Shown in pieces: positions 44,122 to 58,772 of a stretch of 64,000 bases of DNA. Where the stretch lies: NCBI GenBank assembly GCA_018402765.1, contig JAGYIE010000001.1, positions 62,001 to 126,000 of the forward strand. The letters are read 5' to 3'. The position numbers and the translations under genes are program-made. The stretch is from Vicingaceae bacterium (GTDB taxonomy: Bacteria; Bacteroidota; Bacteroidia; Flavobacteriales_E; Vicingaceae). The stretch's first letter is position 1. Each line of letters begins with the position of its first letter. The notes beneath the pieces are model-generated. The model was not told the DNA's origin. It made no database searches and worked only from the letters and a program-made list of their open reading frames with translations.

Positions 44122-44556
44122 TTAAGGGATTACTATCACTTGCTCATCGTAATAAGTATGATTATGTGCACTCCAATTCATTTTAATAAGGTATTTACCT
44201 TTAATAAACTTCTCTAATGGAATCATCTGTTTACTTCCTTTTCCAATAGTTATGTCAAAATCTTTGGTTTCATCAGAAGGTCTAAAACAGTTAATTGTAC
44301 CTTTAAAACTGGCATCCTCTTTTCCGGGAAGCTCAATAATTAGCTGCCTGTCTTTAATAAATAGCTTTACTTTTTCATTTAGGTCAATGGTGTTGGTCTG
44401 ATGGTCTATTCTGTCTTGATAAGCTATTTCTTGTGCATAATAATCTTCCGTTACTAAATCGTAATTTTGATTAAAAGCCATTATTACCATACCGATTATA
44501 AACAGCACAAAGCTGCTATAAAAGATGGCTATTTTAGTACCCCAATTCATTTTCAT
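44122..44556 (-). CDS. ccoH: FixH/CcoH-family protein
   Basis: A 144-residue protein. One N-terminal helix (about 8-27) is followed by the DLVTEDYYAQEIAYQDRIDHQTNT segment typical of FixH and a periplasmic beta domain with INCFRPSDETKD and GKYLIKMNW. FixH/CcoH helps assemble or stabilise the cbb3 oxidase together with the CcoI copper ATPase. It is coupled to ccoG by a TAATG overlap. Confidence 0.9.
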   Translation of the reverse strand: MKMNWGTKIAIFYSSFVLFIIGMVIMAFNQNYDLVTEDYYAQEIAYQDRIDHQTNTIDLNEKVKLFIKDRQLIIELPGKEDASFKGTINCFRPSDETKDFDITIGKGSKQMIPLEKFIKGKYLIKMNWSAHNHTYYDEQVIVIP

Positions 44557-45995
44557 TACTTTTTACGTTTTACGGGAGCTAAAAATGATGTTTTCATATC
44601 ATCAAGTAATTCCCCATTTTGGTCGATAATTTCAAATTCAATGTCTGTCTTTCGTTGTCCTAATTGATCCATGTCTAGGATTAAAAAGAAAGAGCCCTCT
44701 GCTATAGATTCTGAAGGGATTAATAATGCTTCTTTACCTATGATTTGTATTTCGCCCTCCATGCCTTTTAACAGAATTGTAGCAGGGATTGAATCATACG
44801 TTTTGTTGATAATCTTATAGTTATAAAGATTACTAACTTTTCCATCTGGTCTTTTCTGGTATTCTTGTCCTGTTGCTTTTAGAACCGTAGCTTCTACCTC
44901 TGATCGACTCATTAGAAAGAAACCAACTACACATAAAATAATTGTTAATACTACTGTATATCCAATAGTTCTAGTGGACCAAATTTTCTTCTCCTTATTT
45001 ACAATACCTTCCTCTGAGTCGTAGCGAATCAATCCTTTAGGTAATCCAACACTCTCCATCATGTGGTCGCAGGCATCTATGCACGCTGTGCAGTTGACAC
45101 ACTCTAATTGAGTTCCATTTCTAATGTCTATTCCTGTAGGGCATACGTTTACACATTGGTTACAATCGATGCAGTCACCTTTATTTACTTCTCCACGGTT
45201 TTCATTTTTTCTAAATTTTCCGCGCATTTCACCTCTAACGTAGTCATAAGCTACTACAATAGAATTTCTATCGAGCATGACTCCTTGAAGTCTGCCATAG
45301 GGACAAGCTACGATGCAAACCTGCTCTCTAAACCAGCTAAAAACCCAATAAAATACACCTGTAAAAACAATAATGGAAGCTAAACCTACAATATGATTTT
45401 CGGGTGAATCAGTTACCAACTTTATCCACTCATCGGAACCAATAATGTACATTAAGAAAGTATTGGAAATCAAAAACGAAATCAAGAAAAAGATTCCATG
45501 TTTTAAGATACGTTTTCTGATTTTTTCACTGTTCCATTGACTATCTCTCAGTTTCTTTTGCTGCTTAAAATCACCGTCGATTAAGTATTCAATTTTTCTG
45601 AATACCATCTCCATAAATATGGTTTGAGGGCAAACCCAACCACAAAAAATACGCCCGAAAACGACTGTGAATAATACAACGAAGAGAACAAAGCTGAGCA
45701 TCACTAGTACAAAAATGTAAAAGTCTTGTGGCCAAAATACTTGTCCTAAAAGAACAAATTTACGTTCTAGTATATTAACTAATAATAGTGGATGCCCACC
45801 AATTCGTATAAATGGACCTGAGAATAAAAAGAGTAATAAAATAACGCTCACCCATGTGCGAGCGTTATAGTATTTTCCGGAAGGTTTTTTTGGACTGATC
45901 CAATGTCTTTTCCCATCTTCATCTATCGTACCGATAGAATCCCGAAAGGATTGGTCCATATATTCTTCTTTCTCTTTCATTTTAGTTTTTTTCAA
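44556..45995 (-). CDS. ccoG: Cytochrome cbb3 oxidase accessory protein CcoG (FixG/RdxA)
   Basis: A 479-residue membrane protein. After N-terminal helices come GRIFCGWVCPQTIFMEMVFR near 110, a VACPYGRLQG segment near 230 and two 4Fe-4S ferredoxin clusters, CIDCNQCVNVCPTGIDIRNG and CVNCTACIDACDHMM (about 280-315). A C-terminal immunoglobulin-like periplasmic domain follows. CcoG acts in copper delivery, reducing Cu(II) for cbb3 maturation. It starts 18 bp downstream of the ccoP stop codon. Confidence 0.95.
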   Translation of the reverse strand: MKKTKMKEKEEYMDQSFRDSIGTIDEDGKRHWISPKKPSGKYYNARTWVSVILLLFLFSGPFIRIGGHPLLLVNILERKFVLLGQVFWPQDFYIFVLVMLSFVLFVVLFTVVFGRIFCGWVCPQTIFMEMVFRKIEYLIDGDFKQQKKLRDSQWNSEKIRKRILKHGIFFLISFLISNTFLMYIIGSDEWIKLVTDSPENHIVGLASIIVFTGVFYWVFSWFREQVCIVACPYGRLQGVMLDRNSIVVAYDYVRGEMRGKFRKNENRGEVNKGDCIDCNQCVNVCPTGIDIRNGTQLECVNCTACIDACDHMMESVGLPKGLIRYDSEEGIVNKEKKIWSTRTIGYTVVLTIILCVVGFFLMSRSEVEATVLKATGQEYQKRPDGKVSNLYNYKIINKTYDSIPATILLKGMEGEIQIIGKEALLIPSESIAEGSFFLILDMDQLGQRKTDIEFEIIDQNGELLDDMKTSFLAPVKRKK

Positions 45996-46013: not shown

Positions 46014-47180
46014 TTATTCTACTTCTCCAGTAGAAGTGTCGTCTTCGGTTACTGTGGTTGCAGTAGTATCGTTTGCTGCATCTTCAATAGATACTTCTAC
46101 TTTTTTTTCTACCCATATTTCTCCTTGTGGATCTTTTCCATTCGGAGGGTTAGTGCCTTGAAGGCTAAGGACATAACTTGCAATTTGTTGTATTTGTAAA
46201 GGACTAAATTGACTTTGCCAAGCAATCATACCTTTTGCTGGAACACCGTACTTGATAACTTTAAACACATTACTAATGCCGCCTCCATGAATCCAGAATT
46301 CATCGGTTAGGTTAGGACCTACTAATCCTTCAGCTAGCGCCCCATGACAAGTAGCACAGTTTCCTTTGTAAATATTTGCTCCTGTATTGATTGCATCTAA
46401 GTCAACTAGAAGGGTTACATTATCTTCTGTGATTTGTTCACCACCACTTTCTAATGCGACAGCTTTAGCTTCTTCAGCCGCTAACATTTCAGCTTTGTAT
46501 TCGGCCAATTGCAATTCACCTGTACCCGTAACGTGATAACGAATGATATAAATGAATGCGAAGATGATGGTAGCGTAAAACATGTACTTCCACCATGGTG
46601 GTAAATTATTGTCAAGTTCTCTAATGCCATCATATTCATGGTCTAGCATTACGGTTACTTCTTCTTCAATTGGCACATTATCAGTTAGCTTACTACCAAT
46701 AAGGTCGAATACAGAACTTTCTTCTTCAAGAAAATTATCGCCTCTCTTATACCGAATCATCGTTTTTAATGAACGGAATAAAATCGCAATCACTAAACCT
46801 AGGAATCCTATTATAGCAATCAATGACCAGAATAATACATCACTCATTACAAATTGTGCAGAAGTAGCTCCGTCGGCAGCGAAAGCTCCAATTGAGGTTC
46901 CAGCCATTAGCAATACTGCAATAGACTTAACAATATTTTCAGTTTTTTTTGCTGCTGCTATTTCTTCTGTAGTTTTAATCTTGCCAATACTTTGGATACT
47001 TTGTCCGATAGCATGAACGATCAAAAGAAGCAGTAAAATAACACTTATTAATGCCGTTAGTAAGAAGGCATCAGAGATACCTGAGCTACTAGTAGCTGCT
47101 GTCTCTGCAGCATAAACACCCGCAGGAAAAGTACAAATGACAACGGCTGTCAAAACGTAAATTAAAGGTTGCTTTTTCAT
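46014..47180 (-). CDS. ccoP: Cytochrome cbb3 oxidase subunit III, monoheme form (CcoP)
   Basis: A 388-residue protein. An N-terminal signal-like helix and additional hydrophobic segments (about 38-60, 85-105 and 112-135) precede the usual CcoP anchor NNLPPWWKYMFYATIIFAFIY near 190. The periplasmic cytochrome c domain has a single CxxCH (GNCATCHGALAEG, near 285) with an axial-Met candidate in PAKGMIAW. Classical CcoP carries two hemes; only one is visible here. Its ATG overlaps the ccoQ stop as ATGA. Confidence 0.93.
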   Translation of the reverse strand: MKKQPLIYVLTAVVICTFPAGVYAAETAATSSSGISDAFLLTALISVILLLLLIVHAIGQSIQSIGKIKTTEEIAAAKKTENIVKSIAVLLMAGTSIGAFAADGATSAQFVMSDVLFWSLIAIIGFLGLVIAILFRSLKTMIRYKRGDNFLEEESSVFDLIGSKLTDNVPIEEEVTVMLDHEYDGIRELDNNLPPWWKYMFYATIIFAFIYIIRYHVTGTGELQLAEYKAEMLAAEEAKAVALESGGEQITEDNVTLLVDLDAINTGANIYKGNCATCHGALAEGLVGPNLTDEFWIHGGGISNVFKVIKYGVPAKGMIAWQSQFSPLQIQQIASYVLSLQGTNPPNGKDPQGEIWVEKKVEVSIEDAANDTTATTVTEDDTSTGEVE

Positions 47181-47389
47181 GGCTTAAAAGGTTCAGAGGT
47201 TTGACTTTGGTTAGTTGTTTCTCCATCACTTAATGGTAAAGCTGATAAACTACTTAGCTCTGTTTTTTTCATTTTAGCTACCCAAATAAATAGCCCAATA
47301 AAAAAGATGAAGAAAATAAGGAAGGAGATGATAGGGAAGATGTCTATCCCTACTATCGTATCCAAGTTATGTTTGATGAATTTTAGCAT
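47177..47389 (-). CDS. ccoQ: CcoQ-like small subunit of cbb3 oxidase
   Basis: A 70-residue protein with one membrane helix (about residues 17-39) and a polar Ser/Thr-rich tail. The position between ccoNO and ccoP, the size and the single helix are those of CcoQ/FixQ, which stabilises the CcoP-core interaction. Sequence conservation is always low in this family, so the call rests mainly on context. Confidence 0.82.
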   Translation of the reverse strand: MLKFIKHNLDTIVGIDIFPIISFLIFFIFFIGLFIWVAKMKKTELSSLSALPLSDGETTNQSQTSEPFKP

Positions 47390-47392
47390 AAT

Positions 47393-49570
47393 CTATTTTT
47401 TATCAGTTGTTGGTACAGCTTCAATATCTTTCCCTAAACGTTGTAGGTAAGCAATTAAAGCAATGATTTCACGATCTGCAGCTACTTCAAATCCATCTTC
47501 TTCTAGAATTTGACGCATATCCTCTACGATTTCATTAGCTTGTTTTTGAACATCTTCATTAGCTCTTGCTGCATAATTTTCACCGTATGGAGCCTCATCA
47601 TAAGGCACACCTAGTGTTATCATGGCATTTATTTTTGCTGCTGTTGTAGAAGTATCGTAGGTATTATCTAACAACCAAGGGTAGGCGGGCATAATAGACC
47701 CTGCAGATAAACTTCTCGGATCATACATGTGTTTAAAATGCCAAGAGTTAGGCTTACGCAATTTACTACTACCTTCACGGGCTAAATCAGGACCGGTACG
47801 TTTAGACCCCCATAAGAATGGATGGTCATAAACAAATTCGCCCGCTTTAGAGTATTCTCCATATCGCTCAGTTTCTGATCTAAATGGACGAATCATCTGG
47901 CTGTGACAGTTAACACAACCATTAGAGATATAAATATCTCTTCCGTGTAACTCTAGAGGTGTATAAGGTTTTACAGCTTCAATAGTAGGAATATTAGATT
48001 TCACTAAGAAAGTAGGAACCATTTCTATTATCCCACCAATTAGAATCACTACTAAAGATCCGATTAGCATTAAAGTAGGCTTACGCTCTAAGATTCTGTG
48101 CCAGTGTTCATCTTTGTATTGATTAGAGATAGGCGCTAAAGCAGGTGCTTCTGCAGGCTCATCTTTCACAAAGCTTCCTGACTTGGCAGTCATAATTAAG
48201 TTCCATACCATAACCAGTACACCTATGTAATAAAGTGTGCCTCCTAATGCTCTGTAAGCATACATTGGTAAAATGTTGGTTACTGTTTCTAAGAAGTTAG
48301 GATACTTTAAGAAACCTTCTGCTGTAAAGTCGTTCCACATTTGGCTCTGTGCAAAACCTGCCCAATATAATGGAATGGCATAGAATAAAATTCCTAAAGT
48401 TCCGATCCAGAAGTGGAAATTCGCTGCTTTTTGAGAGTATAATTTCGTTTTCCACAACACAGGGAATAAGAAATACAACATACCAAAGGTTAAGAAACCG
48501 TTCCATCCTAGCGCTCCCACGTGAACGTGTGCAACGATCCAATCCGTAAAGTGAGCAATAGCATTTACATTTTTCAACGATAACATTGGACCTTCAAACG
48601 TAGACATACCGTAAGCGGTAATAGCGACCACCATAAATTTTAGCACCACACTGTCACGTACCTTATCCCAAGCTCCACGAAGGGTTAATAGTCCATTGAT
48701 CATACCACCCCAAGATGGCGCAATGAGCATAACAGAGAAAACAACACCTAATGATTGTGCCCAATCTGGTAGTGCAGTATATAAAAGGTGGTGAGGACCT
48801 GCCCAAATGTATAAGAAAATTAATGCCCAAAAGTGGATAATGGATAATCGGTAAGAGAATACAGGACGATTAGCCGCTTTTGGAACAAAGTAATACATTA
48901 AACCTAGGTATGGTGTAGTTAAGAAAAATGCTACAGCATTGTGCCCATACCACCATTGCACTAATGCATCTTGCACACCTGCATACCAAGAATAACTCTT
49001 CATAAAGCTAATTGGTAACTCAAACGAGTTGACGATATGCAAAACTGCTACAGTAACGAATGTAGCAATGTAAAACCAAATAGCTACATATAGGTGGCGT
49101 TCTCTTCGCTTTAGAATTGTAGCAAATAAATTCCAACCAAATACAACCCAAATCAATGCAATAGCAATATCAATTGGCCACTCTAACTCAGCATACTCTT
49201 TAGATGTAGTGTATCCTAACGGTAATGTAATAACTGCCGATACAATGATTGCTTGCCATCCCCAAAAGTTAATTTTACCTAGTAAATCACTGTACATTCG
49301 GGTTTTCAATAATCGCTGTAGCGAATAATACACTCCAGCGAAAATTCCGTTTCCTACGAATGCAAAAATCACTGCATTGGTATGCAGTGGTCTTATACGA
49401 CCGAATGAGGTATATTCTATACCAAAATTTAATACCGGGAAAATAAGTTGAAAAGCTACTAATAAGCCAACCAACATACCGATTGCACCCCAAAAGATGG
49501 TTGCGTTCCCAAATAGCCGGACAATATTATTGTCATAGCTAAACTTTTCTGTTTGCATGTTTGTGTTCAT
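47393..49570 (-). CDS. ccoNO: Fused cytochrome cbb3 oxidase subunits I and II (CcoN-CcoO)
   Basis: A 725-residue protein. The first 470 or so residues are CcoN, with 12 helices, heme/copper His ligands in LHTNAVIFAF (about 63), WWYGHNAVAFFL (about 208), AGPHHLLYT (about 258) and AHVHVGALGWNG (about 345). The remainder is CcoO, with an anchor helix near 505-525 and one heme c site CVNCHSQMIRPF (about 560). Fusion of the two subunits is common in Bacteroidota. It is the catalytic core of the high-affinity proton-pumping oxidase. Confidence 0.97.
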   Translation of the reverse strand: MNTNMQTEKFSYDNNIVRLFGNATIFWGAIGMLVGLLVAFQLIFPVLNFGIEYTSFGRIRPLHTNAVIFAFVGNGIFAGVYYSLQRLLKTRMYSDLLGKINFWGWQAIIVSAVITLPLGYTTSKEYAELEWPIDIAIALIWVVFGWNLFATILKRRERHLYVAIWFYIATFVTVAVLHIVNSFELPISFMKSYSWYAGVQDALVQWWYGHNAVAFFLTTPYLGLMYYFVPKAANRPVFSYRLSIIHFWALIFLYIWAGPHHLLYTALPDWAQSLGVVFSVMLIAPSWGGMINGLLTLRGAWDKVRDSVVLKFMVVAITAYGMSTFEGPMLSLKNVNAIAHFTDWIVAHVHVGALGWNGFLTFGMLYFLFPVLWKTKLYSQKAANFHFWIGTLGILFYAIPLYWAGFAQSQMWNDFTAEGFLKYPNFLETVTNILPMYAYRALGGTLYYIGVLVMVWNLIMTAKSGSFVKDEPAEAPALAPISNQYKDEHWHRILERKPTLMLIGSLVVILIGGIIEMVPTFLVKSNIPTIEAVKPYTPLELHGRDIYISNGCVNCHSQMIRPFRSETERYGEYSKAGEFVYDHPFLWGSKRTGPDLAREGSSKLRKPNSWHFKHMYDPRSLSAGSIMPAYPWLLDNTYDTSTTAAKINAMITLGVPYDEAPYGENYAARANEDVQKQANEIVEDMRQILEEDGFEVAADREIIALIAYLQRLGKDIEAVPTTDKK

Positions 49571-49573
49571 GGA

Positions 49574-49762
49574 TTAATGGTTTTTATCTGATTGTTCTGG
49601 ATTGATTTCCGATTTGGATGATACTTTGTCGTCGAAGAGCATTCTAACTGAAGGGGTGTAATCGTCTTCATATTGTCCTGCTCTCACAGACCAAATAAAT
49701 GCCACTAAAAAACCGATGGCTACGGCTAAGCTGACAAGAATTAAAATGATTAAAACACTCAT
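49574..49762 (-). CDS. ccoS: cbb3 oxidase assembly protein CcoS
   Basis: A 62-residue protein with one N-terminal helix (about 3-27) followed by the typical WSVRAGQYEDDYTPSVRML segment that defines CcoS. It is needed for cofactor insertion into CcoN. First gene of the oxidase operon, 3 bp before ccoNO, with an Fnr-type operator upstream. Confidence 0.93.
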   Translation of the reverse strand: MSVLIILILVSLAVAIGFLVAFIWSVRAGQYEDDYTPSVRMLFDDKVSSKSEINPEQSDKNH

Positions 49763-49779
49763 AAATTTTATTTATAGTT

Positions 49780-49787
49780 CAAAGTTG
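49780..49787 (-). promoter_or_regulatory. -7-like box of the cbb3 operon
   Basis: CAACTTTG on the minus strand, one mismatch from TAnnTTTG. Its last G (49780) lies 36.5 bp from the centre of the upstream operator, exactly as at the two related promoters. Confidence 0.5.
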
Positions 49788-49809
49788 CAATATTGGAACA
49801 CTCAAAAAA

Positions 49810-49823
49810 ATGACAATTGTCAT
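49810..49823. promoter_or_regulatory. Fnr-type operator upstream of ccoS
   Basis: ATGACAATTGTCAT, a perfect 14-bp palindrome, centre at 49816.5, 54 bp upstream of the ccoS start. It resembles the TTGAT-N4-ATCAA type of Fnr/Crp site with different half-site bases. Related sites lie at 50437-50450 and 53112-53125. Confidence 0.7.
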
Positions 49824-49841
49824 GTTTAAACATTTTATTGA

Positions 49842-50378
49842 TTAAAAATCACAATCAGCTGTAGCCGTATCATATGTGGGCATTACTTTATGGATTGTTT
49901 TAGAGTCTTCGTTAAACACTTCCCATTCCTTAACCCTATCTACATTAAGGTGTAAGCTTGAAGTGGTTTCCTGACCAGTATTTCTAATACTGTGGTATCC
50001 CATATTATCATTCAGATATATATACTCTCCTTCTCCTATGGTAATCGATCCAGTTCTAATGGTTTTCATGTCTTCTTTATTGATCTGGTATATATCTACA
50101 GTCAGTTTACCTTTCAATACTTTTAACCAGCTTTCTTGAAAATGATAACTATGAATAGGAGAGTGTTGGTCCTTTTTCCAACACATTAATAATAACTCGT
50201 ATTCATCACATGAGCTAATACAATTTCTTGTGTATTTTTTGTCAGAGAAATTGCAGATAGATTTCCAATCTTCAAAAGGGATGTTAATGGCTTTTAAAAT
50301 TTCTGTATATCCACCATAACCTGGTCCAAGGTTGATATTTTTCTTTAGGTCTGAAATTGTTTTTATGGTTGGTATCAT
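49842..50378 (-). CDS. Cysteine-dioxygenase-like cupin with unusual metal site
   Basis: A 178-residue cupin. The layout follows cysteine dioxygenase: LLLMCWKKDQHSPIHSYHFQESWLKVLKG, then GEGEYIYLNDNMGYHSIRN and SSLHLNVD. The first His (SPIH) and the third (GYH) fit the iron ligands, but the second is not in the usual HxH spacing (HSYH), and the position of the catalytic Tyr after SLHL is Asn. So the substrate may not be cysteine. It has its own Fnr-type operator and sits between the cbb3 operon and the copper ATPase gene. Confidence 0.75.
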   Translation of the reverse strand: MIPTIKTISDLKKNINLGPGYGGYTEILKAINIPFEDWKSICNFSDKKYTRNCISSCDEYELLLMCWKKDQHSPIHSYHFQESWLKVLKGKLTVDIYQINKEDMKTIRTGSITIGEGEYIYLNDNMGYHSIRNTGQETTSSLHLNVDRVKEWEVFNEDSKTIHKVMPTYDTATADCDF

Positions 50379-50406
50379 AATTTGAACTGTTTAATTATTA
50401 ACTATT

Positions 50407-50414
50407 CAAATTTA
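50407..50414 (-). promoter_or_regulatory. -7 box of the cupin gene
   Basis: TAAATTTG on the minus strand, a perfect TAnnTTTG box about 28 bp upstream of the ATG and 36.5 bp from the operator centre at 50443.5. Confidence 0.65.
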
Positions 50415-50436
50415 TGTGGGGTTTTTACTGAATAAA

Positions 50437-50450
50437 ATGATATTTGTCAG
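50437..50450. promoter_or_regulatory. Fnr-type operator upstream of the cupin gene
   Basis: ATGATATTTGTCAG; the core TGATATTTGTCA is an imperfect dyad centred at 50443.5. The 14 bases are identical to the site at 53112-53125. The remaining 220 bp up to the ATPase gene stop show no other feature. Confidence 0.7.
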
Positions 50451-50673
50451 GTTTGATGATTATATTTATTTTAAGATCAATTCTTAAAGAGATAATCAAT
50501 CTTACGATAGCCATTTCTAAGATTTAGCTTCTGTTTAATAAAATAATCGAACGGAAGGTATGTATATAACAATGTAGCTTTCACACTTAAAAAAAGCTAT
50601 TCAAAGTAGATAAAAAAAAAAGATCAATTATTAACCTAGAATAAGTAAAAGAAAGTTTAATTAAAAAACTAAC

Positions 50674-53052
50674 TTACCCAATTTTTCTGCTCGCTATCCA
50701 GGTAGCTAATGTTGAAAATCCAACTACACTAATTGAGCTAACAGGCATAAGAATAGCAGCTGCTACAGGAGATAAAAGGCCTTGAACAGCAAGTGTTAAC
50801 CCAACAATATTATAAATAAAAGAAATGATAAAACTAATGATTACGATACGTTTACAATCTTTAGCAAACTTCATGAAGTGGTCTAATAAACTAAATTGTT
50901 CAGCAGCAAGAATCATATCACAAGCAGGTGAAAATGCATTCACATCTTCTGCTAAAGAAACCCCAACATCACTTTTCTTTAGGGCACCTGCATCATTTAA
51001 CCCATCACCTACCATCATTACTTTGATCCCATTGCTTTGTATACGTTCTACAACATCCATTTTGTCCTGTGGTGTTTGATTAAACAATAATTCACTTTCT
51101 GGTGGAAAAAAATTTGCTAAGGCAGATTTTTGATTGTCGTTATCACCCGATAAAATAGATAGCTTAAACTGCATACTAAGCTTGTTAATCAATGAGCGCA
51201 ATCCTTTTCTGTAATCGTTTTGAATAGTAAAATAGCCAATAATTTCTTTATTAATCGCTACGACTACTGTTGTTTCATTATTGTTTTTTAATTCCGTATT
51301 TAACCAATTTGGTGATCCAAGTTGATACAAATTTCCATCTAAGTTTGCTGCCAATCCTTTTCCTGGAATCTCTTTGAAGGTATTGAGTATAGGAAAATCT
51401 CCATTTGGTAAGAAATTGTATATAATTCTGCTTAATGGATGATTGGATTGCCTAAAAATGGTTTTAATTGATAGTTCCTGTGCGGTATTTAACGATTTTC
51501 CATGATAAACTACTGATTGGTCTTTACTATAGGTTAACGTACCTGTTTTATCAAATACAATGTGATCAATATCTGCTAAGTTTTCTACTACATTCGAAGT
51601 TCTTAAATAACAGTTTTTTCTACCTAACCATCTGCTAGCATGTCCGAAAGTAAAAGGCGCAGCTAAAGCAAGTGCGCATGGACACGCTACGATTAAAACT
51701 GCAGAGACCACTTTAACAACCTCGGAAATTCCAAATTGAAGTTGATATAAACCTGAAGCAATTGCTACAAAAAGTATAATAGGAGTAAACCACTGACTTA
51801 TTTGATCAGTAATCTTTGAGAAATGAGTAAAGTCCTCTTCTTGGGTAAATTGATCATTCCACAAACTAGTTAATTTACTTTGAGATAAAGGTTTTAATGC
51901 CTCTATTTCTATTGCTTCTCCTTGTTGTTTACCACCTGCATAGATTCGATCTCCTGAGTTTTTCTTAATTGGTTTAGATTCTCCTGTGGCAAAACTGTTG
52001 TCAATACGTCCGTCTCCTTTTATTAAAATTGCATCAACAGGAATTAGCTCTCCATTATGAATTAAAATGCGATCTCCTTTTTGAATGGTATTTACAGGTA
52101 TCGACTCTTCCCCGTATTCAGTTAGTTTAGTAACTGAGATGGGAAAATAAGATCTAAAATCACGCTCAAAAGAAAGTCTATGATACGTTTTTTCCTGAAA
52201 TATTTTTCCAATTAATAAGAAGAAGAGTAATCCACATAAACTATCGAAATAGCCTGCTCCTGTCTGTGAAACAACCTCATACGCACTTCTTGTATATAGA
52301 ACTAAGATACCTAGAGCGATAGGGACATCTATATTAAGCCGCTTTTTGCGTAAGCTAACTGTTGCAGATTTAAAATAATCCCATCCGCTATAAAAAGCTA
52401 CAGGAGTTGCTATAATTAAGTTGAGGTGGCCAAACCATGATGAAAAGGTGTCGAAAGATTCTAAATCCAATCCGAAATATTCGGGCAAGCTTAATAACAT
52501 AATATTTCCAAATGCAAATCCAGCTAAGCCTACTTGATAGACTAGTCGTCTGCTAATGGATTTCTTTTGAGTCATTGTGGTTCTGTCTAAGTTTATTTCG
52601 GGCTCATAACCTAGGCTAGTAATTAATTCTACCACTCCACGAAGACTCAATTCTTGATTGGAAAAAGTAATCGAAACTTCCTTTTTAAGAAAGTTGACGC
52701 GGCTTTGTTTGATGTTTGGTTGTAATTTAAAAAGGTTTTCTAATAACCATAAGCAAGAGCTACAGTGTATCTGTGGAATATATAAACTGATTTTACTAAT
52801 AGATTCATCCTTAAAATCGAGCAACTGATCTTGAATTTCTGCATGGTCTAAGTAAGCAAATCGGCCTTGTTTTGCAACCTTAGGCGATATCCCGGGCATT
52901 TGCTCTAAACGATAATAGTCACATAAGTCATTTTGATTTAGTATCTCATAGACAGTTTGGCAACCATTACAGCAAAAAGGTTTATCGTCGAAAGTAATTA
53001 TTTCTTCTTCACAAGATTCTCCGCAATGATAACATGTAGGTTGCTTACTCAT
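50674..53052 (-). CDS. ccoI: CcoI/FixI-type copper-transporting P-type ATPase
   Basis: A 792-residue P1B ATPase. A Cys-rich N-terminal zinc/copper segment (CYHCGESCEEE...FCCNGCQTVYEIL, 7-40) is followed by an HMA domain with HCSSCLWLLENLF near 95, eight helices, the ion-site CPCALALAAPF, the phosphorylation site DKTGTLT and MVGDGLNDAGALKK. The N-terminal layout is typical of CcoI, which supplies copper for the CcoN binuclear centre. Divergent from the fnr-like gene, with one operator between them. Confidence 0.94.
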   Translation of the reverse strand: MSKQPTCYHCGESCEEEIITFDDKPFCCNGCQTVYEILNQNDLCDYYRLEQMPGISPKVAKQGRFAYLDHAEIQDQLLDFKDESISKISLYIPQIHCSSCLWLLENLFKLQPNIKQSRVNFLKKEVSITFSNQELSLRGVVELITSLGYEPEINLDRTTMTQKKSISRRLVYQVGLAGFAFGNIMLLSLPEYFGLDLESFDTFSSWFGHLNLIIATPVAFYSGWDYFKSATVSLRKKRLNIDVPIALGILVLYTRSAYEVVSQTGAGYFDSLCGLLFFLLIGKIFQEKTYHRLSFERDFRSYFPISVTKLTEYGEESIPVNTIQKGDRILIHNGELIPVDAILIKGDGRIDNSFATGESKPIKKNSGDRIYAGGKQQGEAIEIEALKPLSQSKLTSLWNDQFTQEEDFTHFSKITDQISQWFTPIILFVAIASGLYQLQFGISEVVKVVSAVLIVACPCALALAAPFTFGHASRWLGRKNCYLRTSNVVENLADIDHIVFDKTGTLTYSKDQSVVYHGKSLNTAQELSIKTIFRQSNHPLSRIIYNFLPNGDFPILNTFKEIPGKGLAANLDGNLYQLGSPNWLNTELKNNNETTVVVAINKEIIGYFTIQNDYRKGLRSLINKLSMQFKLSILSGDNDNQKSALANFFPPESELLFNQTPQDKMDVVERIQSNGIKVMMVGDGLNDAGALKKSDVGVSLAEDVNAFSPACDMILAAEQFSLLDHFMKFAKDCKRIVIISFIISFIYNIVGLTLAVQGLLSPVAAAILMPVSSISVVGFSTLATWIASRKIG

Positions 53053-53081
53053 TTAATAACAGAATTAAAATGTTAAAGCCA

Positions 53082-53089
53082 CAAATTTC
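53082..53089 (-). promoter_or_regulatory. -7-like box of the copper ATPase gene
   Basis: GAAATTTG on the minus strand, one mismatch from TAnnTTTG. Its last G (53082) lies 36.5 bp from the operator centre at 53118.5. Confidence 0.5.
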
Positions 53090-53111
53090 CTTTTATTATA
53101 GCTACTAAAGT

Positions 53112-53125
53112 ATGATATTTGTCAG
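53112..53125. promoter_or_regulatory. Fnr-type operator between ccoI and the fnr-like gene
   Basis: ATGATATTTGTCAG, identical to the cupin-gene site. Its centre is 66 bp from the ATPase start and 17 bp from the fnr-like start at 53136. In the plus direction it contains GATATTTG, a near -7 box, so binding here could activate the ATPase gene and repress the regulator's own gene. Confidence 0.7.
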
Positions 53126-53135
53126 TATAAGTGAT

Positions 53136-53843
53136 ATGAGCGAGAAATTAGAAGTTCCAAGTTGTTCCAAATGTAACGCACGCCACCAATCTGTATTCTG
53201 CAGTCTTAACTCTGAGCAGCTGATTGACTTAGATAGTGAGAAAGGATGTGACTTTTATAAAAAGGGTGAACAAATCTTTAAAGAGGGCGGATATTCTAGG
53301 GGTCTTTTCTGTGTTAACAAAGGCAAGATAAAAATAGTTAGAATGGGACAATCTGGTAAAGAGCAGATTGTTCGTTTTGCAAAGGCGGGAGATATAATGG
53401 GCTATAATTCCATGCTAAGCAAAAGGCAACTTAGTGCTTCGGCAATAGCCTTAGAAGATTCTGCAGTATGTTTTATTCCATCTCACGATTTTTTTGATTT
53501 AATTAGAAGCGAACCAAATTTTAGTTTGAAATTATTAGAACTAACCGCAAAAAATTGGAATGATGCATCTCGATTGATTACTGATATGGCTCAAAAAACA
53601 ACACGGCAGCGATTAGCAGAAATGTTGTTATGGCTAAAAGAGACTTTTGGATTAGATGAAAATGACTGTATTGACGTTAATTTAACGCGAGAAGAAATCG
53701 CCAATATGGTAGGAACTGCAACTGAATCGTTAATTCGTTTGATAGGGGATTTGAAAAAAAATAAGCTCATCAGCCTTGAAGGTAAACGAATTAAACTTTT
53801 AGATATTCACGGTTTGGTTATGATTGCTGACTTAATCGATTAA
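53136..53843 (+). CDS. Crp/Fnr-family transcriptional regulator with N-terminal cysteines
   Basis: About 235 residues from the ATG at 53136; an upstream in-frame ATG at 53112 lies inside the operator. The N-terminus has C10, C13 and C22 (CSKC...FC), and more Cys follow (KGCDF, LFCVN, AVCFI), so an oxygen-sensing iron-sulfur cluster as in FNR is plausible. A cyclic-nucleotide-like beta-roll domain precedes the HTH LTREEIANMVGTATESLIRLI (about 190-210). Encoded beside cbb3 genes, it is the likely regulator of the three operators found here. Confidence 0.9.
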   Translation: MSEKLEVPSCSKCNARHQSVFCSLNSEQLIDLDSEKGCDFYKKGEQIFKEGGYSRGLFCVNKGKIKIVRMGQSGKEQIVRFAKAGDIMGYNSMLSKRQLSASAIALEDSAVCFIPSHDFFDLIRSEPNFSLKLLELTAKNWNDASRLITDMAQKTTRQRLAEMLLWLKETFGLDENDCIDVNLTREEIANMVGTATESLIRLIGDLKKNKLISLEGKRIKLLDIHGLVMIADLID

Positions 53844-55747: not shown

Positions 55748-56779
55748 GTGCACCATAAATTTAGTCAGTTTACTAGTCATATAGTCGCTTTTAGCCTATT
55801 GTTTTCTTTTAATTATTTAAAAGGACAAGACGTTCACTTGTCGCAGCCTATGCTAAATCCATTATTACTAAATCCGGCGCTAACTGCACACGGAGATGCC
55901 GATTGGAAATTAATGGCCAACTATCGCAGCCAATGGCAGAGTTTAGGTGCTCCTTTTATTTCTAATGTAATTGCAGTAGACAAAAAGTTAGTGGTTTTAA
56001 ATCAAAATATTGGAGTGGGAGGTTTACTCGTTTATGACCAAAGTGGTGATGGAAATTTAACCAACTTTGCAGTGGGAATCTCTGCAGCCTATGAGAAAGA
56101 CATTGGTAAATTTCATCTTCGAGGTGGTGCAAGAGGAAACTTTTCAATTCAGCAATTCGATTTAACTCAACTAACTTTTCCTGAACAGTATGACCGAACT
56201 CAAGGAGGATTTAATCAGCAGTTGGATAATGGAGAGTCTTTTGCAGGACAGCAAACAAACTATTTGGATATTGCAATTGGTATTCTCGCAGAATATACTG
56301 TTACACCAAAATTAAAAGCAGGATTTGGGATTACTAATTTTTACGTCAATCAACCAAATGTTTCCTTTTATGCCAATGAAAGTAAACGAAATCCATATTA
56401 TAATTATCAAGGATTTGCTAGTTATCAATACACTGAAAGACTGCTTCTAAAACCATATTTAATTTATAGTTTTTTGTCCAAAGCCTCTCAATTACTAATC
56501 GGTTCTGAGGTAAATTACACCTTATTAAATCAACCACAGAAGATTGACTATTTAGTTGGAGCACTTAGTGCTAGATCGGGATTTAATCGAAATTTTGATG
56601 CAGTAGTTCTAAAAGCGGGCTTAGGTTTCAAACGTTTAGAAGTAGGAGTGAGTTATGACTTTACATTCTCATCACTCAGGCAAGTAGCGGACTACCGCGG
56701 AGCCCTGGAGTTTGGATTAGTATTAAAAGGACCTTCTAGCATTTTACCATTTAAAACAATCCCTTGTGAACGCTTATAA
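55748..56779 (+). CDS. PorP/SprF-family type IX secretion membrane protein
   Basis: A 343-residue protein starting at GTG. A signal peptide ends near LKGQ (27), followed by DVHLSQPMLNPLLLNPALT, the start diagnostic for PorP/SprF. The rest is an outer-membrane barrel pattern (for example YRSQWQSLGAPF, LKAGFGITNFYVN, LKAGLGFKRLEVGVSYDF). Such proteins act in type IX secretion or surface attachment of its cargo. It overlaps the OmpA-family gene by 14 bp. Confidence 0.9.
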   Translation: MHHKFSQFTSHIVAFSLLFSFNYLKGQDVHLSQPMLNPLLLNPALTAHGDADWKLMANYRSQWQSLGAPFISNVIAVDKKLVVLNQNIGVGGLLVYDQSGDGNLTNFAVGISAAYEKDIGKFHLRGGARGNFSIQQFDLTQLTFPEQYDRTQGGFNQQLDNGESFAGQQTNYLDIAIGILAEYTVTPKLKAGFGITNFYVNQPNVSFYANESKRNPYYNYQGFASYQYTERLLLKPYLIYSFLSKASQLLIGSEVNYTLLNQPQKIDYLVGALSARSGFNRNFDAVVLKAGLGFKRLEVGVSYDFTFSSLRQVADYRGALEFGLVLKGPSSILPFKTIPCERL

Positions 56780-58772
56780 ATATATAATTTCAGTTTTAGT
56801 TTTTTTTATAGTACTGTCCACAAATGCTCAACAAGCATTAACTAATGCATCTGCATCTAGCTTAAAGCGATATGCAAAAGCAGCTGAACGGGATGGAGAT
56901 TGTAAGAATGGAATCAATTATTTGGAAGCCTACCTCAAACGTAAACCAAAAGATCAAAAAGCTAAATATCAGTTGGCTGAGCAATATGCTAAAAATAGAA
57001 ACTATCAAAAAGCGCATGAACTATTTAGGGAATTGGATCCAACTAAATTTCCGTTGGCCCCATTTTACCAAGGTGAAATGGAAATCAGACTTGGCAGATA
57101 CCTAGAAGCTCAAAAGACCTTAGCTGAATTCAGAAAATCATATAGAGGGGAAAAGAACGATGACTACTTCCGTCGATTGGCAAAAGATAAAATAGAAAGT
57201 GCAGAAGCGGCAGATACCATGTCTCAGCGTAAACCGAGGTATACGGTTAAACGTTTGAATGGTGATGTGAATAAAGTATATATTGAACAAAGTCCATTAT
57301 TAATTAATGAAGAACTACTAATTTATTCATCCTTGCGGTCTGATACATTTATTTCAGTAACTACAAACGAAACTCAGCAACCAACCAAACGCACATTTCA
57401 CAGTGCTCAAAAAGATGGAACAAATTGGAAGTATGTCGGAGTTTATGAGCTACATCCTTTTTTTACCGATTTTGATTTATCAAGTGCATGTTTGTCTCCA
57501 AATGGTAATCAAATGATTGTCTCAGCTTGTCAACAAGAGATTAGCGGTAAAATGATTTGCCGATTGTATTCATTACAGAAAAGCGGAAATACTTGGGTAA
57601 ATCCGACTTTACTGCCTGAAGAAGTAAATGCAAGAGGGGTTTCAACTACTCAACCAACTTTGGCTCCGGGTTGTAAAAATGATAGAGAAATCCTTTACTT
57701 TGTTAGTGAGCGGCCTGGTGGAAGAGGCGGTAAAGATATATGGTATTCTACCTATTATACAGAAAAGGAAACCTATAGAGCGGCAAGAAATGCAGGTATG
57801 AAGATAAATACCAATCAAGATGAACTATCTCCTTATTATGATTTAGCTTCTGCTCAATTGTATTTTAGTTCTGAAGGTCATCCTGGTTTGGGTGGCTTTG
57901 ATTTGTATTCCACTCAAGGTTATAAAGGCAAATGGGAAGAGCCTGAAAATATAGGACCTCCAATAAATTCGGCTGCAGATGAATTGTTTTATACTCCTTC
58001 AAATAGCGGAATAGATGGGTTTTTTACAAGTAATCGGGCAGGAGGAGAGAGGGATAATAAAGAAACTTGTTGTGATGATTTATACCAGTTTAAAAAGATT
58101 GATAGCGCTTATACTTTGTTGGAAGGAAAAGTTCAATTTGATGACAATTCTTCAGGTGATATATGGGTAGAAGTGTACATCACTTCTGTTAATGGTGAGA
58201 AACTATTTGTAAATCGAATTTTAACAGATCAGGATGGGAATTACAGTACACGCTTATTACCTGGTAAGCGCTATGAAGTTTCTACGAGTTCAGATGGTGC
58301 ATTAGCTAAATTGTATGCAATAGACTTACTTCAATCATTTGATAAAAAAAGGATTAATTGGTCACCCACATTACAACCCATTAATGACCAACCCTTCGCA
58401 ATTAAAGATATTAATTATGAATTTGATAAAGATGAATTAACCGCATTAGCAAAGTTGAAACTTGACTCATTTTTACTGCCTGTGATGATCAATAATCCTT
58501 CACTTATTGTTGAAATAGGGTCACATACGGACAATAGAGGAACTACAGCTTACAATTATAATTTATCTCAAAGAAGGGCAGAAAGTATTGTAATGTACAT
58601 GATTAAAAAAGGGATAAGTCCTAATCGATTAACCGCTAAAGGGTATGGTGAATCTATTCCAATAGCAAAAAATGAAAACTCCGATGGTACAGATAATGCA
58701 GCAGGTAGAGCAATTAATAGAAGGTCAGAAATAAAAGTAATCGGTAGAATAGAAGTGGATGAAGAGGAGTGA
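56766..58772 (+). CDS. PorE-like TPR/PD40/OmpA-domain lipid-free periplasmic protein
   Basis: A 668-residue protein starting at GTG. Signal peptide to about residue 22; a TPR-like region (35-130); a WD40/PD40-like beta-propeller (about 160-450, with LYFVSERPGGRGGKDIWY and LYFSSEGHPGLGGFDLY); a carboxypeptidase-regulatory-like domain (about 455-530); and a C-terminal OmpA domain (INYEFDKDELTALAKLKL, EIGSHTDNRGT, NRRSEIKVIG). This architecture and the PorP neighbour match PorE-type proteins that bind peptidoglycan in type IX secretion. It may belong to one of several paralogous pairs. Confidence 0.88.
   Translation: MNAYKYIISVLVFFIVLSTNAQQALTNASASSLKRYAKAAERDGDCKNGINYLEAYLKRKPKDQKAKYQLAEQYAKNRNYQKAHELFRELDPTKFPLAPFYQGEMEIRLGRYLEAQKTLAEFRKSYRGEKNDDYFRRLAKDKIESAEAADTMSQRKPRYTVKRLNGDVNKVYIEQSPLLINEELLIYSSLRSDTFISVTTNETQQPTKRTFHSAQKDGTNWKYVGVYELHPFFTDFDLSSACLSPNGNQMIVSACQQEISGKMICRLYSLQKSGNTWVNPTLLPEEVNARGVSTTQPTLAPGCKNDREILYFVSERPGGRGGKDIWYSTYYTEKETYRAARNAGMKINTNQDELSPYYDLASAQLYFSSEGHPGLGGFDLYSTQGYKGKWEEPENIGPPINSAADELFYTPSNSGIDGFFTSNRAGGERDNKETCCDDLYQFKKIDSAYTLLEGKVQFDDNSSGDIWVEVYITSVNGEKLFVNRILTDQDGNYSTRLLPGKRYEVSTSSDGALAKLYAIDLLQSFDKKRINWSPTLQPINDQPFAIKDINYEFDKDELTALAKLKLDSFLLPVMINNPSLIVEIGSHTDNRGTTAYNYNLSQRRAESIVMYMIKKGISPNRLTAKGYGESIPIAKNENSDGTDNAAGRAINRRSEIKVIGRIEVDEEE

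Follow-up and report, generated by a model that had tools for sequence, protein, structure and literature searches.

The window analysed here is a stretch of 64,000 nucleotides from a Vicingaceae bacterium (assembly GCA_018402765.1, contig JAGYIE010000001.1, positions 62,001 to 126,000 of the forward strand), and it holds a block of cbb3 oxidase genes with three short dyads. The minus strand carries ccoS for cbb3 oxidase assembly (49574..49762; NCBIfam and Pfam), a cupin gene of the cysteine dioxygenase family (49842..50378; PF05995) and a gene for a copper-translocating P-type ATPase with HMA and ATPase-cat_bd matches (50674..53052), which is CcoI/FixI-like by context. The plus strand encodes an FNR-type regulator of 235 amino acid residues (53136..53843), and its gene, fnr, is divergent from the ATPase gene. 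Dyad 1 (ATGACAATTGTCAT, minus strand, 49810..49823) is found upstream of ccoS, dyad 2 (CTGACAAATATCAT in the minus strand reading, 50437..50450) upstream of the cupin gene, and dyad 3 (53112..53125), which is shared and belongs to no single strand, between the ATPase gene and fnr. An annotation made earlier from the letters alone (the original prediction) had proposed these three 14-mers as Fnr-type operators of identical geometry, and a direct reading of the sequence found them at 49810, 50437 and 53112 as claimed.

Each dyad is accompanied by a -7-like box on the minus strand, which carries all three boxes as well as the genes served by them. The boxes are CAACTTTG for ccoS (49780..49787), TAAATTTG for the cupin gene (50407..50414) and GAAATTTG for the ATPase gene (53082..53089). 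They had been described as TAnnTTTG-like, which is perfectly so for the middle box, whereas the other two keep the A and lack the first T. The equal geometry was confirmed: a distance of 36.5 bp separates each dyad centre from the last G of its box (the complement of the C at 49780, 50407 and 53082), and 27 bases lie between the 12-base dyad and TTTG at all three sites (N27). A published start-site map of Flavobacterium psychrophilum places the sigma-A box TAnnTTTG at -12 to -5 (PMC9723704). With the G of the box at -5, a position taken from F. psychrophilum and not from this organism, the distance of 36.5 bp therefore places the dyad centres at a predicted -41.5, in agreement with the class II position that had been proposed. 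Of 23 FNR-activated E. coli promoters whose start is known, 19 have the site within 4 nucleotides of -41.5 (PMC3688515). On the basis of the flavobacterial map the starts are predicted near 49775, 50402 and 53077, which gives leaders 13, 24 and 25 bases long. At the usual -33 place no TTG was seen by eye in any of the three promoters; in that of ccoS a TTTG ends near -28.

The pattern TGAYAWWTGTCA gave 4 strand-matches at the 3 dyad places of the window against 0.21 expected, a number not attained in any of 100 shuffles. The excess was weaker when one mismatch was allowed (9 matches against 4.25 expected; 3 of 100 shuffles reached 9), and because of this the dyads without their spacing are only moderately surprising. 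The weight of the evidence is in the spacing, not in the dyads alone.

The whole assembly (3,098,843 bases in 16 contigs) was then scanned with TGAYANNTRTCA, which was found at 24 places and, as a control, at 16 when the pattern was read backwards. The open reading frames around all 24 matches placed 20 inside genes, 1 over a start codon and 3 between genes, and the only intergenic matches upstream of a gene are the three dyads of the window. TGAYN5TCA-N27-TTTG had 8 matches in the genome (4 in the backward control), and only the three are strict dyads. Under this pattern the regulon is local and comprises ccoSNOQP, the cupin gene and the copper ATPase gene, all adjoining the regulator gene; a wider regulon in this genome was not found with the strict pattern. 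In keeping with this small target set, the cytochrome c gene that bears a site in five relatives is represented here by no more than a partial match of 33%.

Conservation of the dyads in relatives, which the original prediction had named as a check, was observed together with the same spacing. A search with the Fnr protein through the family's 46 genomes gave a match of at least 50% over most of the protein in 23 of them, including this one; searches at the level of the order covered the same 46 genomes, and the class was used as the next level. Strict dyads were present in the corresponding block of ten relatives (G001, G003, G013, G029, G030, G031, G035, G038, G039 and G040). One locus from a scan of named genomes (L025) has genes and dyads identical in kind to those of L064. 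TTTG occurred at N27 in 23 of 27 listed block sites (11 genomes, the three sites of the window included), or 20 of 24 in the ten relatives, and the other four sites have TTTA (three) or TTCG (one) at exactly this position.

For a count in upstream regions, 220 bases 5' of each gene were taken from 71 loci, of which 40 belong to other families in the class. TGAN6TCA-N27-TTTG was found in 16 of 25 ccoS regions (8 of 13 outside the family), in 16 of 30 ATPase regions (5 of 15 outside the family, one of which, L162, is 190 bases away and doubtful) and in 6 of 7 cupin regions. At the control spacings each gene set had at most one region at 26 and at most two at 28, and ccoS had 5 at a spacing of 49. 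Mononucleotide shuffles, repeated for 300 rounds, never gave more than one region with an N27 match. Loci around fnr, which were selected irrespective of spacing, contain 96 oriented strict dyads; TTTG was at N27 in 32 of these, and the 59 other spacings averaged 0.78 with no more than 6 at any one. The generic TGAN6TCA in the same loci gave 99 of 1132 at N27 (other spacings: mean 10.5, maximum 33), and the backward motif showed no peak (2 at N27, mean 3.66). Across the 46 family genomes the strict dyad with TTTG at N27 was counted 93 times, compared with 9 in the backward control and with 166 in total, or 16.6 each, at the spacings 17-26. Class-wide, in 295 genomes, the form with T after the dyad was detected in 112 genomes with 209 matches against 15 in the backward control (summed by eye). 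The excess at N27 in the relatives, the upstream regions and the family-wide counts bears out the claim that the equal spacing is not due to chance.

The composition of the promoters was examined in 58 collected cases. The base at -11 was A in 93% and that at -12 was T in 60%, both columns lying outside the selection pattern, and T was found at -33 in 83% and at -32 in 79%. The set includes loci fetched for their N27 match, and the evidence is taken from the columns outside the pattern only. Because of this column composition, the boxes at N27 behave as putative -7 elements.

The maximum of 33 for the generic pattern was at N49, 22 bases beyond N27, and in 17 of these 33 cases a second TGAN6TCA was present at N27 of the same TTTG. 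Dyad pairs exactly 22 bp apart were counted 21 times in 16 of the 40 loci from other families (L141-L180), with a mean of 0.28 at other offsets, and once in the window's family. These pair counts indicate that in other families of the class many promoters would have tandem dyads at a predicted -63.5 and -41.5, whereas one dyad at the predicted -41.5 appears to be the rule in the window's family. By eye, the three sites of the window are of the single-dyad kind and have no tandem partner.

The regulator matched PF00027, PF13545 and PF00325 over the cut-off, corresponding to a cyclic-nucleotide-binding-type beta roll and a Crp-type helix-turn-helix. Its structural model had a mean predicted local distance difference test score (pLDDT) of 90.0 and a template modelling score (TM-score) of 0.85 to holo-FNR and of 0.85 to the Crp protein of Porphyromonas gingivalis (2GAU). 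Three cysteines at the N-terminus (Cys10, Cys13 and Cys22, C-x2-C-x8-C) are followed by Cys59 and by Cys112 in the beta roll. In the alignment to the solved Aliivibrio fischeri FNR, Cys10, Cys13 and Cys112 coincide with cysteines that we take to be its cluster ligands, and the third N-terminal cysteine is shifted. The recognition helix GTATESLIR keeps the Glu and Arg of FNR (E-x3-R) and has Ile for Ser, and the half-site contains TGA. The Ser of the FNR helix contacts the outer T of TTGAT, and its replacement by Ile would fit the loss of this T. Four genes of the CRP/FNR superfamily were found in the genome; the one adjoining the third site, whose N-terminal cysteines had been noted originally, is the only one to have them, and the three others differ from it in the recognition helix as well. 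In 71 homologues inspected by eye, Cys10 was kept in 67, Cys13 in 68, Cys22 in 46, Cys59 in 67 and Cys112 in 69. Alignment A1 comprises 42 of these, and the 29 left out include L156 (without Cys59), L177 and L170 (without Cys10) and the broken or partial L074 and L082. The better conservation of Cys59 compared with Cys22 is a hint at a different set of cluster ligands.

The number of N27 sites follows the presence of the fnr-type gene. The 12 genomes with an fnr match of at least 60% had a mean of 3.92 sites and the 14 genomes with none of at least 35% had 0.50 (p 6e-5); the 12 include G002, which has an fnr fragment only and no site. For G032 the best match was not among the matches listed and was entered as 0. 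At control spacings the two groups showed no difference (3.75 and 3.64). In G035 (L063) and G031 (L074) the fnr gene is broken by a stop or a frame change in the assemblies and the operators remain. A second Fnr-type subfamily (L086, L087, L155, L167, L168) has dyads that conform or come close to TGATT-N2-AATCA, placed at N27 of the subfamily's own promoter; this arrangement suggests that it activates itself through another half-site.

That the third site adjoins the fnr-like gene is correct, and the arrangement goes beyond this, as dyad 3 overlaps the predicted fnr core promoter. No nAnnTTTG other than GATATTTG (53114..53121, plus strand), which is inside the dyad, occurs in the 110 bases preceding the fnr start; it is a candidate -7 box. 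If so, dyad 3 is centred at -7.5 of fnr and at the same time at the predicted -41.5 of the ATPase gene. Such a dyad was found over the predicted fnr core promoter in 19 of 23 divergent fnr-ATPase loci. The nAnnTTTG box is inside the dyad in 9 of the 10 genomes of the window clade shown, L065 having a second one further up, and also in L074 with the broken gene; L068 has TTTA in place of TTTG. The dyad centre is at a predicted -18.5 of fnr in L073, L075, L076 and L077 and at a predicted -27.5 in L071, L146, L163 and L165 (L146 and L165 also with a box inside the dyad), and in L170 the dyad is just downstream of the box. Exceptions are L179, L169 and L178, where the dyad is elsewhere or the gap is long. 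On the ATPase side an exact TTTG at N27 was absent from 5 of the 19 loci (L063, L071, L076, L077, L170).

In these 19 loci a bound dimer should hinder the polymerase at the fnr promoter. Dyad 3 is nearly invariant, with 2 variants among 9 genomes and pairs differing on average at 0.22 of 12 bases, whereas the ccoS dyad is more variable (1.56, 4 variants), and this would be explained by a double duty. Dyad 3 is probably both an activator and an autorepressor site, and we lean towards an autorepression of fnr through it. An ATG inside dyad 3 was rejected as the fnr start, since it is out of frame in L062 and a start ATGAGC or similar is kept.

The sites, their exact spacing, their conservation, the co-occurrence with fnr and the family of the regulator make it very likely that the dyads are operators of the 53136-53843 regulator for a class II activation of the cbb3 genes at low oxygen, with dyad 3 shared. 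We infer from sequence how binding and the direction of control would look. At low oxygen the regulator, probably carrying an oxygen-labile iron-sulphur cluster, would bind to the dyads as a dimer centred at the predicted -41.5. From there it would activate, in class II fashion, sigma-A promoters that have a TAnnTTTG-like -7 box and lack a clear -33 element, and this would raise ccoSNOQP, the cupin gene and the ccoI-type copper ATPase gene. At dyad 3, on the predicted core promoter of the divergent fnr, occupancy would repress fnr. This provides a concrete operator, an exact activation geometry on an unusual Bacteroidota promoter, a regulator and candidate targets for low-oxygen control in the phylum. 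The case would illustrate how an activator of the CRP/FNR type can engage a sigma factor with a -7 box unlike the classical -10, and it leads to the prediction that the shared operator mediates autorepression.

Several observations speak against this interpretation. The first T is absent from two of the three boxes of the window, and the N27 match is missing from 9 of 25 ccoS and 14 of 30 ATPase regions. The relatives are not independent samples, and the spacing counts include near neighbours such as L143 and L144. The generic pattern also peaks at N49, which is partly explained by the tandem dyads. Four of the 23 divergent loci (L068, L169, L178, L179) have no dyad over a recognisable fnr core promoter. 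The NCBIfam Fnr model PRK11161 gave 102.7 bits, far under its cut-off of 228, and the protein is therefore filed as FNR-type and not as Fnr proper. N27 sites occur without a close Fnr in G014, G019, G027, G032, G034 and G036, some of which are incomplete genomes, and 6 of the 14 genomes without an fnr match of at least 35% have one or two sites.

The alternative that survives best accepts real FNR-type operators and replaces oxygen as the signal by nitric oxide, the redox state or copper, sensed via the cysteines or another cofactor. The targets include a copper pump, Cys22 is missing in 25 of the 71 homologues, and heme is bound by the CRP/FNR proteins HcpR and PgRsp of P. gingivalis (PMC12040651). 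We regard a different signal as unlikely, since the protein has all three N-terminal cysteines as well as Cys112, which is equivalent to the FNR ligand, the targets serve a high-affinity oxidase, and the cbb3 genes of F. psychrophilum rise at oxygen limitation (PMC9723704). Still less probable is that another protein of the CRP/FNR superfamily binds to the dyads and that the fnr-type gene is a mere neighbour. Three further superfamily genes exist in this genome, motifs can be common to members of the superfamily, and some relatives have N27 sites without a close Fnr; however, the three proteins have neither the N-terminal cysteines nor the same recognition helix, the number of sites tracks the fnr orthologue, and the fnr-ATPase dyad stays beside fnr across the class. 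An equal spacing by chance or by copying one promoter three times, to which the identical 14-mer at sites 2 and 3 and the one-mismatch dyads at only about twice the expectation might point, has next to no probability and was rejected, because N27 peaks family-wide, in upstream regions and in the spacing-blind loci, recurs at unrelated genes in relatives, and the 27-base spacers of the three promoters are dissimilar.

A tentative proposal that we judge rather doubtful as a whole combines an alternative ligand set with a rebuilt shared operator and tandem dimers. The cluster of the Bacteroidota FNR type would be held by the CxxC pair Cys10 and Cys13 together with Cys59 and Cys112, and the third N-terminal cysteine would be dispensable. 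The ccoI-type gene would be activated at -41.5 and fnr repressed from about -7.5, -18.5 or -27.5. This negative-feedback switch would have been kept across the class while its geometry was rebuilt several times, and in other families a second dimer would sit exactly two helical turns further upstream.

The FNR-type control of cbb3 genes, which we favour here, is known as such. In Proteobacteria the CRP/FNR regulators FixK, FnrL and Anr raise the cbb3 oxidase genes at low oxygen. The present case differs in the phylum, in the sigma-factor box and in its gene arrangement, where the regulator and ccoI-type genes diverge from a single dyad common to both. New are the Bacteroidota promoter setting, the half-site and the shared operator. 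In the accessible parts of the open-licence literature no description of an Fnr operator or a class II geometry for cbb3 genes in Bacteroidota was found, and the main text of the F. psychrophilum study, which reports a strong rise of cbb3 at oxygen limitation, contains no mention of Fnr (PMC9723704).

With the FNR proteins of E. coli and Aliivibrio the regulator shares the CRP/FNR fold, the aligned Cys10, Cys13 and Cys112, the Glu and Arg of the helix and the core TGA-N6-TCA; the sites, which are centred at -41.5 there (PMC3688515), have -41.5 as their predicted position here. In contrast to these proteins, the spacing before its third N-terminal cysteine is x8, where FNR has x5, and this cysteine is not in all relatives, Ile replaces the helix Ser, the half-site is ATGAC/CTGAC and not TTGAT, the -7 box is the Bacteroidota TAnnTTTG, and only three sites were seen in the genome. 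The half-site had been said to differ from that of E. coli. This is right for the flanking and inner bases, the outer T included, in which the dyads depart from the consensus TTGATnnnnATCAA, but the core is the same. HcpR is FNR-like, and one type uses TTGACnnnnGTCAA, which has TGAC/GTCA in common with dyad 1, but HcpR lacks the FNR cysteine motif and serves hcp, and the Bacteroides type has the motif GTAACnnnnGTTAC (PMC1274295). The protein described here does not belong to HcpR, as it has the cysteines and the genes behind its sites are ccoS, the cupin gene and the ATPase gene. P. gingivalis Crp (2GAU) is the closest solved chain by sequence and by fold; its alignment starts at residue 19, the N-terminal CxxC is not common to both, and its function is of the Crp type (PMC12040651).

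Downstream of ccoS the same strand continues with ccoNO (47393-49570), a small ccoQ-like open reading frame named from its position only (47177-47389), ccoP (46014-47180) and ccoG (44556-45995). In the cupin protein the second metal-ligand His is replaced by Tyr, and all seven aligned family copies have Tyr or Phe where the HxH motif has its second His. A related protein from another genus with its own N27 site (L200) keeps HNH.

Other N27 targets were collected from 50 loci, a part of the 93 matches; some have no clear gene behind the site or are apparently inside a gene. A cytochrome c lipoprotein was found behind the site in five genomes (L092, L182, L189, L191, L194), and an acetyl-CoA hydrolase/transferase (L184, L185, L196), a UPF0176 rhodanese (L110, L111, L187) and a universal stress protein (L109, L113, L118) in three each. 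Glutamyl-tRNA reductase (L186) and the cysteine-dioxygenase-family protein of L200 were single cases. For these six kinds of target one example each was confirmed with Pfam. A single dyad with N27 on both sides serves the divergent promoters of the cupin and the universal stress protein genes in L109 and L113, and another two-sided N27 dyad occurs in L197 between genes read as a ketoacid-ferredoxin oxidoreductase and an NADH dehydrogenase subunit. Elsewhere in the window, at 55748-58772, a gene of the type IX secretion PorP/SprF family precedes one that has an OmpA domain and also matches tetratricopeptide and PD40.

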